A stretch of 64,000 nucleotides of DNA from Hydromonas sp. (GTDB lineage Bacteria > Pseudomonadota > Gammaproteobacteria > Burkholderiales > Burkholderiaceae): positions 1 through 64,000 of the forward strand of contig JAFEII010000028.1 of the NCBI GenBank assembly GCA_017495165.1. The letters run 5' to 3'. The notes beneath the pieces are model-generated. The model was not told the origin of the DNA and searched no databases. It worked only from the letters and a program-made list of their open reading frames with translations. Positions 27,736 through 34,290 of the stretch are shown here, one piece after another. How positions within the stretch are numbered: the first letter of the stretch is position 1; the number at the start of each line of letters is the position of its first letter. The translations under genes were made by a program, and so were the position numbers.

Positions 27736-29283
27736 ATGGCAACACAAAAAAAAAACCCCGCAGCCACCGAGCCACTCGAAAAACAACTGTGGCGTGCCGC
27801 CGATAAATTACGCAAAAACATCGACGCTGCCGAATACAAACACGTGTTGCTGGGCTTGATTTTCTTACGTTATATTTCAGACTCGTTTGAGCTGGTGTAT
27901 GAACTCTTGCTCAAAGGCGAGGGCGATTTGGCGGATGCAGACCCTGAGGATGCGGACGAGTACAAAGCGCAAAATGTGTTTTTTGTGCCGCCCACTGCGC
28001 GTTGGTCTCACATACAGAACCAAGCCAAGCAGCCCGGCATTGGCAAAAGCATTGACGCGGCGATGGATGCGATAGAGCAAAGCAACGGCGAGCAGCTCAA
28101 AGGCGTGTTGCCCAAAGTGTATGCGCGGCAAAATCTGGATCCTGTCAGTTTGGGCGAATTGATCGACCTCATCAGCAACATCGCCTTAACTGATGCCAAA
28201 AGCCGCAGCGCCGATGTGTTGGGTCATGTGTTTGAATATTTTTTGGGTGAATTTGCACTGGCCGAAGGCAAGAAAGGTGGGCAATTTTACACGCCGCGCC
28301 CGATTGTTGAATTGTTGGTCGAAATGCTCCAGCCCTACCACGGGCGCGTATTTGATCCGTGTTGCGGCAGCGGCGGCATGTTTGTGCAAAGCGAAAAATT
28401 TGTCACCGAGCACCAAGGGCGCATAAGCGACATCAGTATTTATGGGCAAGAGTCCAACCAAACCACATGGCGTTTGGCCAAAATGAACCTTGCGATTCGT
28501 GGCATCGACGCCAGCCAAGTCAAATGGAATACCGAAGGCTCATTTCTCAACGACGCGCACATGGCGCTCAAATCGGACTTCATCATCGCCAACCCGCCGT
28601 TTAATGTCAGTGACTGGAGTGGCGAGCAACTGCGCAGTGACGCGCGTTGGCAATACGGCACGCCGCCTGCGGGCAACGCCAATTTTGCATGGCTGCAACA
28701 TTTTGCCTATCATTTATCGCCCACAGGCCGTGCGGGTGTGGTGCTCGCCAAAGGCGCATTGACCAGCAAAACCAATGGCGAGGGCGAAATTCGCCGTGCG
28801 TTAATCGAGCAGGGCAACCTCATCGACTGCGTGGTCAATTTACCCGCCAAATTATTCCTCAACACCCAAATCCCCGCCGCGCTGTGGTTTATGAACAAAG
28901 CCCGCGCCAGTGGCGCACACGCCCGCAAAGGCGAAATCTTATTCATTGACGCACGCAACATGGGGCAACTCATCAACCGCCGCACCCGCACCCTGAGCGC
29001 GGACGACATCCAACAAATCGCCAACACCTACCATGCATGGGGCAAAAACGACGACAGCTACGCCGACATCGCAGGTTTTTGCGCCAGCGCGCCGATGAGC
29101 CGCATCACCGAGCTCGACTATGTCCTCACCCCTGGTCGCTATGTTGGCTTGCCTGACGAAGAAGATGATTTCAACTTTGCCGAACGATTTACCGCGCTCA
29201 AAGCCGAATTTGCCGCGCAATTGCAAGAAGAAGCGACGTTGAATCAAGCGATTTTGGACAATTTGGCCAAGGTGAAAGCATGA
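27736..29283 (+). CDS. hsdM: type I restriction-modification methyltransferase subunit HsdM
   Basis: Adenine-N6 methyltransferase of a type I R-M system; 515 residues. It has an N-terminal HsdM helical domain (LWRAADKLRKNIDAAEYKHV), motif I DPCCGSGGM (Asp207), catalytic motif IV NPPF (286-289) and an intact C-terminal helical domain ending near EEATLNQAILDNLAKVKA. AAGG lies eight bases before ATG 27736; a TATACT box is at 27698-27703. Codons 4-7 are built on ten consecutive adenines (27746-27755): one A more stops translation at 27806, one less within about 40 codons, so expression could be phase-variable. First gene of hsdM-hsdS-hsdR. Confidence 0.95.
   Translation: MATQKKNPAATEPLEKQLWRAADKLRKNIDAAEYKHVLLGLIFLRYISDSFELVYELLLKGEGDLADADPEDADEYKAQNVFFVPPTARWSHIQNQAKQPGIGKSIDAAMDAIEQSNGEQLKGVLPKVYARQNLDPVSLGELIDLISNIALTDAKSRSADVLGHVFEYFLGEFALAEGKKGGQFYTPRPIVELLVEMLQPYHGRVFDPCCGSGGMFVQSEKFVTEHQGRISDISIYGQESNQTTWRLAKMNLAIRGIDASQVKWNTEGSFLNDAHMALKSDFIIANPPFNVSDWSGEQLRSDARWQYGTPPAGNANFAWLQHFAYHLSPTGRAGVVLAKGALTSKTNGEGEIRRALIEQGNLIDCVVNLPAKLFLNTQIPAALWFMNKARASGAHARKGEILFIDARNMGQLINRRTRTLSADDIQQIANTYHAWGKNDDSYADIAGFCASAPMSRITELDYVLTPGRYVGLPDEEDDFNFAERFTALKAEFAAQLQEEATLNQAILDNLAKVKA
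27746..27755 (+). repeat. A10 tract at codons 4-7 of hsdM
   Basis: Ten adenines in frame (CAA AAA AAA AAC). A simple-sequence tract at the very 5' end of a coding region is where slipped-strand mispairing would switch the gene; transcriptional slippage is also possible. Confidence 0.9.
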
Positions 29284-29365: not shown

Positions 29366-30499
29366 ATGAATAAACGCACCCCAACCCCCAACCCCACGGC
29401 ACCCGCAAACTCCGACCCCGTAGGGGCGCAACTCATTGCTCCCGAGGCCAGTGCTGCTGTGGGTGAAGGGTGGCGTGAATGTAAGTTAGGTGATGTTTTG
29501 TATTTTGGGAGTGGCAAAGATAGGCCTAAACAGGATGGAAATATTCCTGTTTATGGTGGCAATGGTATTTTGGGTTATGCAAATCAATCAAATTATGAAA
29601 ACGAAACGATTGTAATTGGACGAGTTGGCGCATATTGTGGTTCAGTTTATTATGAAAATAGAGCCATTTGGGTGTCTGACAATGCCTTATCTGCGTTTCC
29701 CAAAAACGGGTATGACGCTAGGTTTTTATATTATTTTTTAAAAGATATGGATTTGAACTCTCATGCTGGGGGTTCAAGTCACCCGCTTGTTACACAGACG
29801 CTGCTTAACTCTCTAGATGTAAGCGTTTGTATAAAATTGTCAGAACAAAAATCCATCGCCTCGGTTTTATCGAGTTTGGACGACAAAATCGACCTATTGC
29901 ACCGCCAAAACCAAACCCTAAAAGCCATGGCGCAAACCCTGTTTCGCCAGTGGTTTGTTGAAGAGGCTCGGGCGGATTGGTACTTCGCGAAGCTCGGTGA
30001 TTGTGTGAATATTAGTTACGGGAAGAGTTTACCAACTAAAAACTTGTTAAATGAGGGCTTTCCTGTTTTTGGCGCTAATGGTCAAATTGGTTTTTATGGT
30101 TTATATACCTATGATGAACCGCAGGTCTTGGTTTCATGCCGTGGTGAGGCTTCTGGAAAAGTGAATGTTAGCCTTCCAAAATCTTTTGTCACCAATAACT
30201 CTTTGGTACTTGAACGCAGTAAAATCCCTGAAATAAGTTTTGAATACTTAAAGCATTGGGCACTTTCTTATGATTTTGACATGCATGTATCTGGTTCTGC
30301 ACAACCTCAAATAACAATTGATGGGTTGTATGGAGCAGATTTTGCTATTCCACCTAAAGAGTTAATTGGTAAATTTACTGAATTGGTTAATGAGTTTGAA
30401 ATTAAAAAATTAAACAATTTTTATCAAATCCAAACCCTAACCCAGTTACGCGATACACTATTACCTAAGTTGATGAGTGGTAAGGTGCTGGTGTCGTAG
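29366..30499 (+). CDS. hsdS: type I restriction-modification specificity subunit HsdS
   Basis: Recognises the bipartite target for HsdM and HsdR. 377 residues with two target-recognition domains (about 33-165 and 210-345), each starting with the family pattern W-x-x-x-K-L-G-D (EGWRECKLGDV and DWYFAKLGDCV), and two conserved helical spacers (EQKSIASVLSSLDDKIDLL...LFRQWF and LTQLRDTLLPKLMSG). Residues 18-27 (PVGAQLIAPE) are translated from a REP-like sequence, and the stop codon lies in another REP unit. The TRDs are AT-richer than hsdM and hsdR, as usual for exchanged specificity domains. No clear ribosome site at ATG 29366. Confidence 0.92.
   Translation: MNKRTPTPNPTAPANSDPVGAQLIAPEASAAVGEGWRECKLGDVLYFGSGKDRPKQDGNIPVYGGNGILGYANQSNYENETIVIGRVGAYCGSVYYENRAIWVSDNALSAFPKNGYDARFLYYFLKDMDLNSHAGGSSHPLVTQTLLNSLDVSVCIKLSEQKSIASVLSSLDDKIDLLHRQNQTLKAMAQTLFRQWFVEEARADWYFAKLGDCVNISYGKSLPTKNLLNEGFPVFGANGQIGFYGLYTYDEPQVLVSCRGEASGKVNVSLPKSFVTNNSLVLERSKIPEISFEYLKHWALSYDFDMHVSGSAQPQITIDGLYGADFAIPPKELIGKFTELVNEFEIKKLNNFYQIQTLTQLRDTLLPKLMSGKVLVS
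29420..29443 (+). repeat. REP-like unit inside hsdS
   Basis: GTAGGGGCGCAACTCATTGC followed by TCCC matches the unit at 47-70 at most positions, including the GTAG head and the GGGGCGC stem. It is translated as part of the HsdS N-terminus. Confidence 0.65.
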
Positions 30500-30517
30500 T
30501 GGCGCATTGCATGCGCC
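30496..30517 (+). repeat. REP-like unit at the hsdS stop codon
   Basis: GTAG head followed by TGGCGCATTGCATGCGCC; the TAG of the head is the hsdS stop codon (30497-30499). First of the REP units bordering the RAYT remnant. Confidence 0.6.
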
Positions 30518-30543: not shown

Positions 30544-31026
30544 ATGACTTTTGTAAAAAAGCACCGCCGCTCAATTCGTTTGCGTGATTACGATTATTCA
30601 TAAATGGGTTTGTACTTTATTACTCTGTATTGCCATCATCGTGAGCCTTTGTTTGGTCGGGTTGTGGCGCGTGAAATGCTGCTCAACTCGGCGGGGCAAG
30701 TTGCTTATGAACAATGGCTAGAAACTGCACGGATTCGTTCCGCAATACGTTTGCATGAGTTTGTAATCATGCCCAATCACATGCACGGCATCATTGAAAT
30801 TTTGCCGACGGGTGAAATGAATATTGCTAAATTGGGCGATGTGGTGCGTGGGTACAAATCATCGGTGACCAAAATGATGCGGTTGTTGCCCGATAGAGAA
30901 GGTGTGTCAATGTGGTAACGAAATTATTACGAGCATATTATTCGCAATGAGCAGGCGTATGAAAAAATTGCGGCGTATATAGCCAATAAGCCGAAACAGT
31001 GGGCAGATGATACATATTTTGTTTGA
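30544..31026 (+). pseudogene. REP-associated tyrosine transposase (RAYT/TnpA-REP), two in-frame TAA codons
   Basis: Read straight through, 160 codons give a complete IS200-like Y1 transposase of the RAYT type: start MTFVKKHRRSIRLRDYDYS, then GLYFITLYCHH, the HUH motif in MPNHMHGIIEI (His79, His81), WxRNYYEHIIRNEQAY with the expected catalytic Tyr near 139, and IANKPKQW. Two TAA codons break it, at codon 20 (30601-30603) and codon 125 (30916-30918). The second stands where Gln is conserved in WQRNYYEH; the first is also where Gln is common (DYDYSQ). Both could be single CAA-to-TAA changes. The open part, 30604-30918, holds HUH but not the Tyr, so it should be inactive. REP units flank it. Confidence 0.85.
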
Positions 31027-31050
31027 TGTTTGAATGGTATGTGTGGGATT

Positions 31051-31122
31051 GTTGGGGTGCATTGCATGCGCCCATGGAGCACGTACCGATGTAGGCGATG
31101 GGCTCATGCAATGCGCCCCTAC
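31051..31122. repeat. REPIN-like inverted pair between RAYT remnant and hsdR
   Basis: GGGGTGCATTGCATGCGCCC (31054-31073) faces GGGCTCATGCAATGCGCCCC then TAC (31100-31122), with a 26-bp spacer. The right unit read in reverse has the GTAG head. It ends nine bases before the hsdR start codon. Confidence 0.7.
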
Positions 31123-31131
31123 GGGTGGTTT

Positions 31132-34100
31132 ATGATTAAATTGACGGAATCGGCTATTGAAAACTGGGCAATCGAATTGCTCCAAGCGCAGGGCTACACC
31201 CACATGCACGGCACAGACCTTGCGCCCGATGCGGGCAATGGCGAGCGGGCGCGGTATGACGATGTGGTGCTGCTAGCGCGCTTGCGTGAGGCGGTGCGGC
31301 GCATCAATCCGAGTATTCCCGCGCCCTTGCAAAATGAGGCGATACGCGCGGTATTGGGGATAGCTTCGCCTGATGTACGGGCCAACAATGAGGCGTTTCA
31401 TCGGCTGCTCACTGAGGGCGTGCCTGTGACGGTGCATGTGGGTGGTGAGGCGCGTGGCGATTGGGTGCGCTTGGTCGATTTTGAGTGCGTGGACAACAAC
31501 GATTTTGTGGTGGCCAGTCAGTTGACCGTGTGCGGGATGCACCACAGCAAACGCACGGATTTGGTGCTGTATGTCAATGGTTTGCCGCTGGTGCTGCTGG
31601 AATTAAAAAATGCCGTCGATGAAACGGCGACACTGCAAACGGCGTTTAACCAAGTGCAGACCTACACCGATGTCATCCCGCAATTGTTTACTTTTAATGC
31701 GTTCTCGGTGGTGAGCGATGGTTTGGAGGCGCGCGCGGGTGCGCTGGGTGCGGGTTTTTCGCGTTTTATGGCGTGGAAATCAGCCGATGGGCTGGCCGAT
31801 GCGTTGCGTTTGCAAAGCCAATTGGCGGTGTTGATTGCGGGCATGTTGGGGCGTGAGACGTTGCTTGATTTGGTGCGCAGTTTTGTGGTGTTTGAAAAAA
31901 CCGACCACAAAGATCCCGACACGGGGTTGATTCGCATTCAAACGGTCAAAAAAATCGCAGCCTATCACCAATATTATGCGGTCAATAAAGCGGTGGCATC
32001 GACCTTGCGGGCGGCGGCGAGCAATGGCGACCGCAAAGGCGGCGTGGTGTGCCACACGCAGGGCTCGGGCAAGTCGCTCTCGATGGTATTTTATACGGGC
32101 AAGGTGGTGCGGGCGTTGGATAATCCGACGGTGGTGGTGATTACTGACCGCAATGATTTGGACGATCAGTTGTTTGATACCTTTACTGCGGCCAAGCAGT
32201 TGTTGCGTCAAGAACCCAAGCAGGTGAATAGCCGTGCGCATTTGCGCGAGCTGCTCAGTGTGGCTTCGGGTGGGGTGGTGTTTACCACCATCCAAAAGTT
32301 TCAGCCCGAAACGGGCAATGTGTTTGAGGCCTTGAGTGAGCGGCGCAATATTGTGGTGATTGCCGATGAAGCGCACCGCACGCAATATGGCTTTGATGCG
32401 CGCACGGTCGATGATAAAAACGCGGCGGGGCACGTGGTGGGGCAAAAGTTGGTGTATGGCTTTGCCAAATATCTGCGCGACGCATTGCCGCAGGCGACGT
32501 ATTTGGGCTTTACCGGTACGCCGATTGAGGGCACGGATGTCAATACGCCTGCGGTGTTTGGTGACTATGTGGATGTGTATGACATCGCTCAAGCGGTTGA
32601 GGATGGCGCAACGGTGAAGATTTATTATGAAAGCCGTTTGGCCAAAGTGGCCTTGAGCGAGGAAGGGCGTCATTTGGTGGCGCAATTGGACGCACAGTTG
32701 GCGCACGATGATTTGAGCGAATCACAAAAAGCCAAGGCCAAATGGACGCGGATGGAGGCGTTAATCGGCAGCGAACAGCGGATTGACAATATTGCGCGGG
32801 ACATCATCGAGCATTTTGAGGCGCGACAAGCGGTGTTTGCGGGCAAGGCGATGGTGGTGTGTATGTCGCGGCGGATTGCGGCGCAACTGTACAGTGCCAT
32901 GGCGCGGCTGCGCCCCGATTGGCATTCGGACGATTTGGCGCAGGGGCAGATGAAAGTGGTCATGACCGCGTCGAGCGACGATGGCGCGCAATTGGCGCAA
33001 CACCACACCACCAAAGAGCAGCGGCGCATATTGGCCGAGCGGATGAAAGATGCGCAAGATGAGCTCAAACTGGTGATTGTGCGCGATATGTGGCTGACGG
33101 GTTTTGATGCGCCCTCGATGCACACGCTGTACATTGACAAGCCGATGCAAGGGCACAACTTGATGCAAGCGATTGCGCGGGTCAATCGGGTGTATGGCGA
33201 CAAACCCGGTGGTCTGGTGGTCGATTATTTGGGCATCGCAGCGGATCTTAAAAAAGCCTTGTCGTTTTACTCGGACGCAGGCAGTAAAGGCGAGCCTGTG
33301 CTGGCACAAGAGCAGGCGGTCGAATTGATGCAGGAAAAAATCAGCAGCATTGAGCAACTGCTCTCTGGCGTGTCGTATCGGCGGTATTTTACGGCGGATA
33401 CGGCGGGCAAGTTGGCGGTGATTTTAGAGACCGAAGACTATGTTTTGGGCGTGGACAACGGCAAAAAACGCTTTGTGGATGAAGTGGGCAAGCTCTCGCA
33501 AGCCTTTGCGATTGCCGTGCCGCACGCCTTGGCGATGGCGGTCAATCAGGAGGTGGCATTTTTTCAGGCCGTCAAAGCGCGGCTGGCCAAATTTGACGCG
33601 CCCACAGGCTGTGGGCGCAGTAATGCGCAGATTGAAAGCACGATTCGTGAGGTGATTGACCAAGCGCTGTTGTCAGAGCAGGTGCTCGATGTGTTTGATG
33701 CGGCGGGGATTAAGAAGCCCGAATTGTCGATTTTGTCCGATGAGTTTTTGGGCGAATTAAACGTCTACCAGCACAAAAATTTGGCTTTGGAAATGCTCAA
33801 AAAACTGCTCAATGATGAAATCAAAAGCCGCGCCCGTACCAATTTGGTCCAAAGCCGCACCTTGATGGAGATGCTGCAAAGCGCGATTCAAAAATACCAC
33901 AACAAAACCCTCACCGCCGCCGAAGTGATGGAAGAGTTGATTTTAATTAGTAAAGAGATTCTCAGCTCGGACGCCGTTGCCAAAGACGCGGGGCTCTCGA
34001 CGCTCGAATATGCGTTTTATACCGCCGTGGCAAGCAACGACTCGGCGCGCGAGCTGATGACACAAGACAAGCTACGCGAACTGGCGGTGGTCTTGACCGA

Positions 34101-34290
34101 ACGCGTGCGCGCCAATGCGACCATCGACTGGACGATTAAAGAAAGCGTGCAAGCGCAACTACGGGTGATTGTCAAACGGACCTTGCGCCAGTTTGGTTAT
34201 CCGCCTGATATGCAAATCATCGCAACCGAAACCGTGTTGCAGCAGGCGCAGATGATTGCTGGGGTGGTTAGTGATGGTTTAAACGCTTGA
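31132..34290 (+). CDS. hsdR: type I restriction-modification endonuclease/translocase subunit HsdR
   Basis: ATP-driven DNA translocase and nuclease subunit; 1052 residues from MIKLTESAIENWAIE. The nuclease PD-ExK site is D143...E157-L-K159 (LVLLELKNA). The helicase domain has Walker A QGSGKS (Lys314), DEAH box (Asp412-His415) and motif III-like LGFTGTPIEGTDVNT; motif VI resembles QAIARVNRVYGDKPGG. An open frame runs 34 codons further upstream, but those codons are REP sequence, so the later start is chosen. The C-terminal helical region (about 850-1050) appears complete. Normally transcribed near hsdM-hsdS; here separated from hsdS by the RAYT remnant. Confidence 0.93.
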   Translation: MIKLTESAIENWAIELLQAQGYTHMHGTDLAPDAGNGERARYDDVVLLARLREAVRRINPSIPAPLQNEAIRAVLGIASPDVRANNEAFHRLLTEGVPVTVHVGGEARGDWVRLVDFECVDNNDFVVASQLTVCGMHHSKRTDLVLYVNGLPLVLLELKNAVDETATLQTAFNQVQTYTDVIPQLFTFNAFSVVSDGLEARAGALGAGFSRFMAWKSADGLADALRLQSQLAVLIAGMLGRETLLDLVRSFVVFEKTDHKDPDTGLIRIQTVKKIAAYHQYYAVNKAVASTLRAAASNGDRKGGVVCHTQGSGKSLSMVFYTGKVVRALDNPTVVVITDRNDLDDQLFDTFTAAKQLLRQEPKQVNSRAHLRELLSVASGGVVFTTIQKFQPETGNVFEALSERRNIVVIADEAHRTQYGFDARTVDDKNAAGHVVGQKLVYGFAKYLRDALPQATYLGFTGTPIEGTDVNTPAVFGDYVDVYDIAQAVEDGATVKIYYESRLAKVALSEEGRHLVAQLDAQLAHDDLSESQKAKAKWTRMEALIGSEQRIDNIARDIIEHFEARQAVFAGKAMVVCMSRRIAAQLYSAMARLRPDWHSDDLAQGQMKVVMTASSDDGAQLAQHHTTKEQRRILAERMKDAQDELKLVIVRDMWLTGFDAPSMHTLYIDKPMQGHNLMQAIARVNRVYGDKPGGLVVDYLGIAADLKKALSFYSDAGSKGEPVLAQEQAVELMQEKISSIEQLLSGVSYRRYFTADTAGKLAVILETEDYVLGVDNGKKRFVDEVGKLSQAFAIAVPHALAMAVNQEVAFFQAVKARLAKFDAPTGCGRSNAQIESTIREVIDQALLSEQVLDVFDAAGIKKPELSILSDEFLGELNVYQHKNLALEMLKKLLNDEIKSRARTNLVQSRTLMEMLQSAIQKYHNKTLTAAEVMEELILISKEILSSDAVAKDAGLSTLEYAFYTAVASNDSARELMTQDKLRELAVVLTERVRANATIDWTIKESVQAQLRVIVKRTLRQFGYPPDMQIIATETVLQQAQMIAGVVSDGLNA

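Follow-up and report, generated by a model that had tools for sequence, protein, structure and literature searches.

A probable dead REPtron between the hsdS and hsdR genes of an intact type I restriction-modification operon

Relatives of this gene that remain intact are HUH/Y1 single-stranded DNA endonucleases, which bind a REP hairpin with a GTAG tag and both cleave and rejoin it via a phosphotyrosine. REP-associated tyrosine transposases (RAYTs) have been described as single-copy domesticated transposases of unknown function and benefit (PMC8049555). Members of TnpAREP subclass 2.4, or RAYT group 4, are scattered over phyla and contain an NHuH-type HUH motif, a WQ motif, a Y---NP signature, and flanking long REPs with GTAG tags (PMC6006769). 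The signature WQ ... YIxNNP and the in-frame REPs in the loop between the HUH motif and the catalytic Tyr, both described for this subclass (PMC6006769), were also seen in the homologues aligned in this study. In the TnpAREP of E. coli, Q95 contacts the GTAG guide (PMC6006769, PMC8266576), whereas N119, the Asn of the class 2 Y---NP, is assigned as the third metal ligand beside the HUH histidines and is marked as essential for transposition in vivo (PMC6006769). In the GTAG REPtron, REPs in both orientations flank the RAYT, and the supply of a neighboring gene's stop codon by the REP tag is a reported habit (PMC3733652).

The window, i.e., the whole stretch of 64,000 nucleotides analyzed here, belongs to a 2.1-Mb draft genome of 36 contigs with 50% G+C. 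Genome-wide analysis was performed on stretches covering nearly all contigs, taken piece by piece and unjoined. A type I restriction-modification (R-M) operon was found in the window, with hsdM, hsdS, and hsdR at full length and in one direction:

27736..29283, plus strand: hsdM, type I modification subunit, intact (HsdM_N, N6_Mtase; NCBIfam hsdM)
29366..30499, plus strand: hsdS, specificity subunit, intact (Methylase_S; sequence)
31132..34290, plus strand: hsdR, restriction subunit, intact (HSDR_N, SWI2_SNF2, T1RH-like_C)

The hsdR start at 31132 agrees with that of 85% identical relatives. The hsdR frame is also open upstream, through a pair of REPs to a TTG at 31030, and a longer HsdR is formally possible (31030-31131). 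For the two closest hsdR genes (85% identity, another genus), the gap between hsdS and hsdR, herein referred to as the S-R gap, is occupied by an unrelated gene, which leaves no clean empty site for comparison. In loci L098 and L099, the gap gene, 1.5 kb upstream of hsdR, resembles an ATP-binding regulator, and its 3' half is identical in two species.

In the window, the S-R gap contains a RAYT frame with two internal stop codons and one further lesion:

30544..31026, plus strand: RAYT pseudogene, related to TnpAREP subclass 2.4 / RAYT group 4 (translation, Pfam, NCBIfam, homologue alignment)
30601..30603, plus strand: stop 1, TAA, codon 20 (homologue alignment)
30916..30918, plus strand: stop 2, TAA, codon 125, at the Gln of the WQ motif, the GTAG reader (homologue alignment, literature)
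30988..30990, plus strand: third lesion, codon 149, with Lys replacing the invariant metal-ligand Asn of Y---NP (alignment, literature)

The frame matches Pfam PF01797 (Y1_Tnp, E=1e-6) and NCBIfam REP_Tyr_transpos (E=7e-19), the latter at 68.2 bits and thus below the cut-off of 80. These matches, together with the flanking hsdM, hsdS, and hsdR, bear out a preliminary description of this DNA, which had placed a RAYT within an R-M locus. Translation likewise agrees with its account of an otherwise continuous frame: the TAA codons at positions 20 and 125 are the only interruptions, and no frameshift is present. With these two TAA, the gene was classed as a dead derivative and not as a working member of the subclass.

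For comparison, 68 RAYT homologues were aligned, taken from loci of a genome collection and from further genomes. The HUH motif of the window RAYT is NHMH at residues 78-81, and N78, H79, and H81 are invariant in all 68 homologues. Y145 is the catalytic Tyr, and the YY of WQRNYYEH does not have this role. Thus, stop 2 does separate the HUH histidines (H79 and H81, before it) from the catalytic Tyr (after it), as had been claimed. Features shared with subclass 2.4 are the HUH motif, W124 of WQ, Y145 of Y---NP, the flanking GTAG-tagged long REPs, and the scatter of relatives over phyla. The window RAYT differs from this subclass in its two stops, the replacement of the Q of WQ by one of them, the Lys in Y---NP (P150 is kept), and a short HUH-Tyr loop that contains no in-frame REP. 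This loop is variable: a palindrome was found in it in 48 of the 68 homologues, and such loop REPs do not occur in every member of subclass 2.4. They were considered as a new feature and rejected as such, being already described (PMC6006769). The same genome contains an intact RAYT paralogue (L014:1507-2058, contig C25 of G000) with an in-frame copy of its own REP in the loop and four further copies around it.

Both stops had been assigned to Gln positions. This holds strongly for codon 125, the counterpart of E. coli Q95, where Gln is found in 59 homologues and His in the other nine. At codon 20, Gln prevails only among close relatives (20 of the 25 nearest, but 29 of 68 overall). In the host genome, 14790 Gln codons are CAA and 5374 are CAG, and this preference fits an origin of both TAA by C-to-T changes.

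The third lesion contradicts the claim that everything outside the two stops is undamaged. Codon 149 is AAG (Lys) in the window RAYT and Asn in 68/68 homologues. Among the 12 columns invariant in the homologues, 11 are kept and this one alone is departed from. Even a RAYT read through both stops would be a defective enzyme deprived of one metal ligand, because the equivalent of N119 is replaced.

Three REPs were found around the RAYT:

30496..30517, plus strand: GTAG-REP GTAGTGGCGCATTGCATGCGCC (sequence; single-stranded DNA fold z -3.5)
31056..31072, plus strand: second REP, tag degenerate, forming the left arm in an inverted pair of REPs (sequence search, fold)
31100..31122, minus strand: third REP, forming the right arm of this pair and carrying a minus-strand GTAG tag (sequence search, fold)

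GTAG-tagged REPs thus flank the gene on both sides, in opposite orientations. As in the GTAG REPtron (PMC3733652), a tag ends the neighboring gene: hsdS terminates at the TAG contained in the first REP's GTAG. The second and third REPs are inverted, lie between the RAYT and hsdR, and form the arms of one long hairpin (RNA fold of 31027-31160: -52 kcal/mol, z -3.0), which ends 8 nt before the hsdR start.

A search of the host genome allowing up to 2 mismatches recovered these three REPs plus two weak matches, each occurring singly. All three good copies are found no farther than 45 bp upstream and 100 bp downstream of the window RAYT. The three other RAYTs of the genome are each flanked by a REP family, with 54 copies for the one on contig C4, 36 for C25, and 41 for C29:30411. 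Each of these RAYTs has its own REP family, and that of the window RAYT, with three local copies versus 36-54 elsewhere, is confined to its own gene. Unlike the described GTAG REPtron (PMC3733652), the window RAYT therefore has no dispersed REP family in the genome. Members of the abundant GTAG-REP families of the host genome were also found in the window at 47-343 and 2804-2880, singly and as inverted pairs.

We read this element, with a probability of about 0.88, as a dead REPtron: a group 4-like RAYT with private GTAG-REPs in the S-R gap of an intact type I operon, inactivated by two nonsense mutations and the loss of a metal-ligand Asn. The three mutations would together have abolished RAYT activity, the catalytic loss being predicted from the residues affected; any order or age given to them would be an estimate. 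The three REPs would thus be left without a cognate enzyme, which would explain why they did not spread. Effects in cis may persist, as a REP tag ends hsdS and the long hairpin just upstream of the hsdR start could influence hsdR expression. The locus would then represent a REP transposase early in its decay, whose private REPs never became a dispersed family.

RAYTs of the same kin occupy the S-R gap in the same direction in other loci (L034, L039, L041, L073, L077, L078, L085, and others). In these loci the RAYT is mostly intact and its 3' end usually overlaps hsdR, whereas in the window the two genes are 105 nt apart, with two REPs in the intervening sequence. Same-strand hsd genes, scored inside fetched flanks of up to 3 kb, accompany 16 of the 69 RAYTs in the tree (the window included), mostly in the order hsdS-RAYT-hsdR; for random genes about 1% would be expected, a figure estimated, not measured, by assuming one to three type I systems per genome. 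In the seven loci named above, the RAYT stop codon overlaps the hsdR start by four base pairs (ATGA), and the overlap seems somewhat longer in L026 and L256. An ATGA overlap with the downstream frame was found in just three of 53 relatives outside R-M loci. The loci with RAYT-hsdR overlap span several phyla and different HsdR subfamilies. Additionally, the RAYTs of L028 (2938-3915) and L036 (2938-3912) have a common C-terminal extension of about 150 residues.

An origin of the R-M link in one old clade was rejected, since the R-M label requires 14 changes on the tree, about equal to the 14.6 of shuffled labels; at least 9 of the 14 are forced by well-supported branches. As the label is scattered over the tree, the S-R gap has been entered, or left, by RAYTs many times. 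From the hsdR side, a nearby RAYT was detectable in only one of 57 hsdR loci from the family and class, a distantly related RAYT in L286, and the link is thus common from the RAYT side only. No description of RAYTs in restriction loci was found in the literature searched, which is weak evidence because the search missed a main 2017 RAYT survey.

These loci allow a different reading of the window, in which group 4 RAYTs would belong to type I R-M operons as recurrent functional members, their stop overlapping the hsdR start and coupling HsdR translation to a single-strand endonuclease gene, and the window would show a partner being lost after REPs separated it from hsdR. We regard this as doubtful. 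The RAYTs of R-M loci are under purifying selection (dN/dS about 0.14 for L077/L078, 0.33 for L084/L085, and 0.22 for L073/L085), and RAYTs outside such loci likewise show purifying selection. The window RAYT itself is an ordinary, if clean, pseudogene belonging to a known kind; what merits further attention is the recurrence of RAYTs at this position in type I operons. Close kin in the S-R gap, in several phyla and on scattered branches, with seven ATGA overlaps, mark a place to seek a host function or an insertion preference.

Much less probable is a sequencing or assembly error, with stops that are absent from the organism itself. The stops were read from the assembly, a draft in 36 contigs. 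However, an error would have to account for three separate substitutions in one 480-bp gene and none visible in the hsd genes beside it, which are open over 5.8 kb, and the lesions are substitutions, not homopolymer indels.

A functional shortened product is slightly less probable still. An ATG immediately behind the TAA of stop 1 opens a piece of 104 residues (30604-30918), which could be made by reinitiation; this HUH piece, or the translation of the remnant as such, would then affect hsdR expression, and the overlap of the RAYT end with the hsdR start in other R-M loci is in keeping with such a role. The piece would, however, contain neither the GTAG-reading block nor the catalytic helix with its Tyr, and overlap coupling is unavailable at the window's spacing, with a strong hairpin between the genes. 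A split enzyme assembled from two fragments was rejected: no ATG, GTG, or TTG occurs in the RAYT frame after stop 2, which leaves the fragment containing the catalytic Tyr without a usual start codon.

The least probable alternative is programmed or suppressor readthrough of TAA in a living, dosage-limited gene with a low-level full-length product, which the open remaining frame and the Gln positions of both stops would permit but which is opposed by the lost metal ligand, by the failure to find a UUA-anticodon (ochre suppressor) tRNA among 41 tRNAs, and by the lack of any excess of TAA among interrupted coding frames. Only 7 candidate frames genome-wide run through a stop, 2 of them with TAA; they come from a codon-usage scan that is insensitive to atypical codon usage such as that of the window RAYT, and part of them may be merely adjacent genes. 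The readthrough or suppression option left in the preliminary description was therefore rejected. Its judgment that code reassignment is unlikely stands, as TAA is the main normal stop and terminates 558 of the 871 frames longer than 300 codons in the host genome.

For the dead REPtron, the age of the decay was considered further. Sister genomes with Gln codons at both stop sites were sought, and none were found. No close copy of the window RAYT was present in genomes of the same genus, and viral contigs gave no match. Plasmids gave five protein matches below 36% identity and no match at the DNA level. The nearest RAYT relative is about 57% identical over the core, which makes direct dating of the lesions impossible. 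A random substitution in this gene would be a nonsense change in about 4-5% of cases, which suggests that one neutral stop after the first would take on the order of 20 further changes, with a wide error. The proposal of a very recent inactivation is thus upheld in part: the absence of indels and the 11 kept columns agree with it, whereas three separate lesions speak against it. Judged by its intact frame and kept columns, the gene may be at an early stage of decay, selection having ended only recently.

A second case of RAYT decay in an R-M locus was observed in L089 (2858-3642), where the RAYT between hsdS and an open hsdR is apparently frameshifted, while its close relatives in L077 and L078 are intact.
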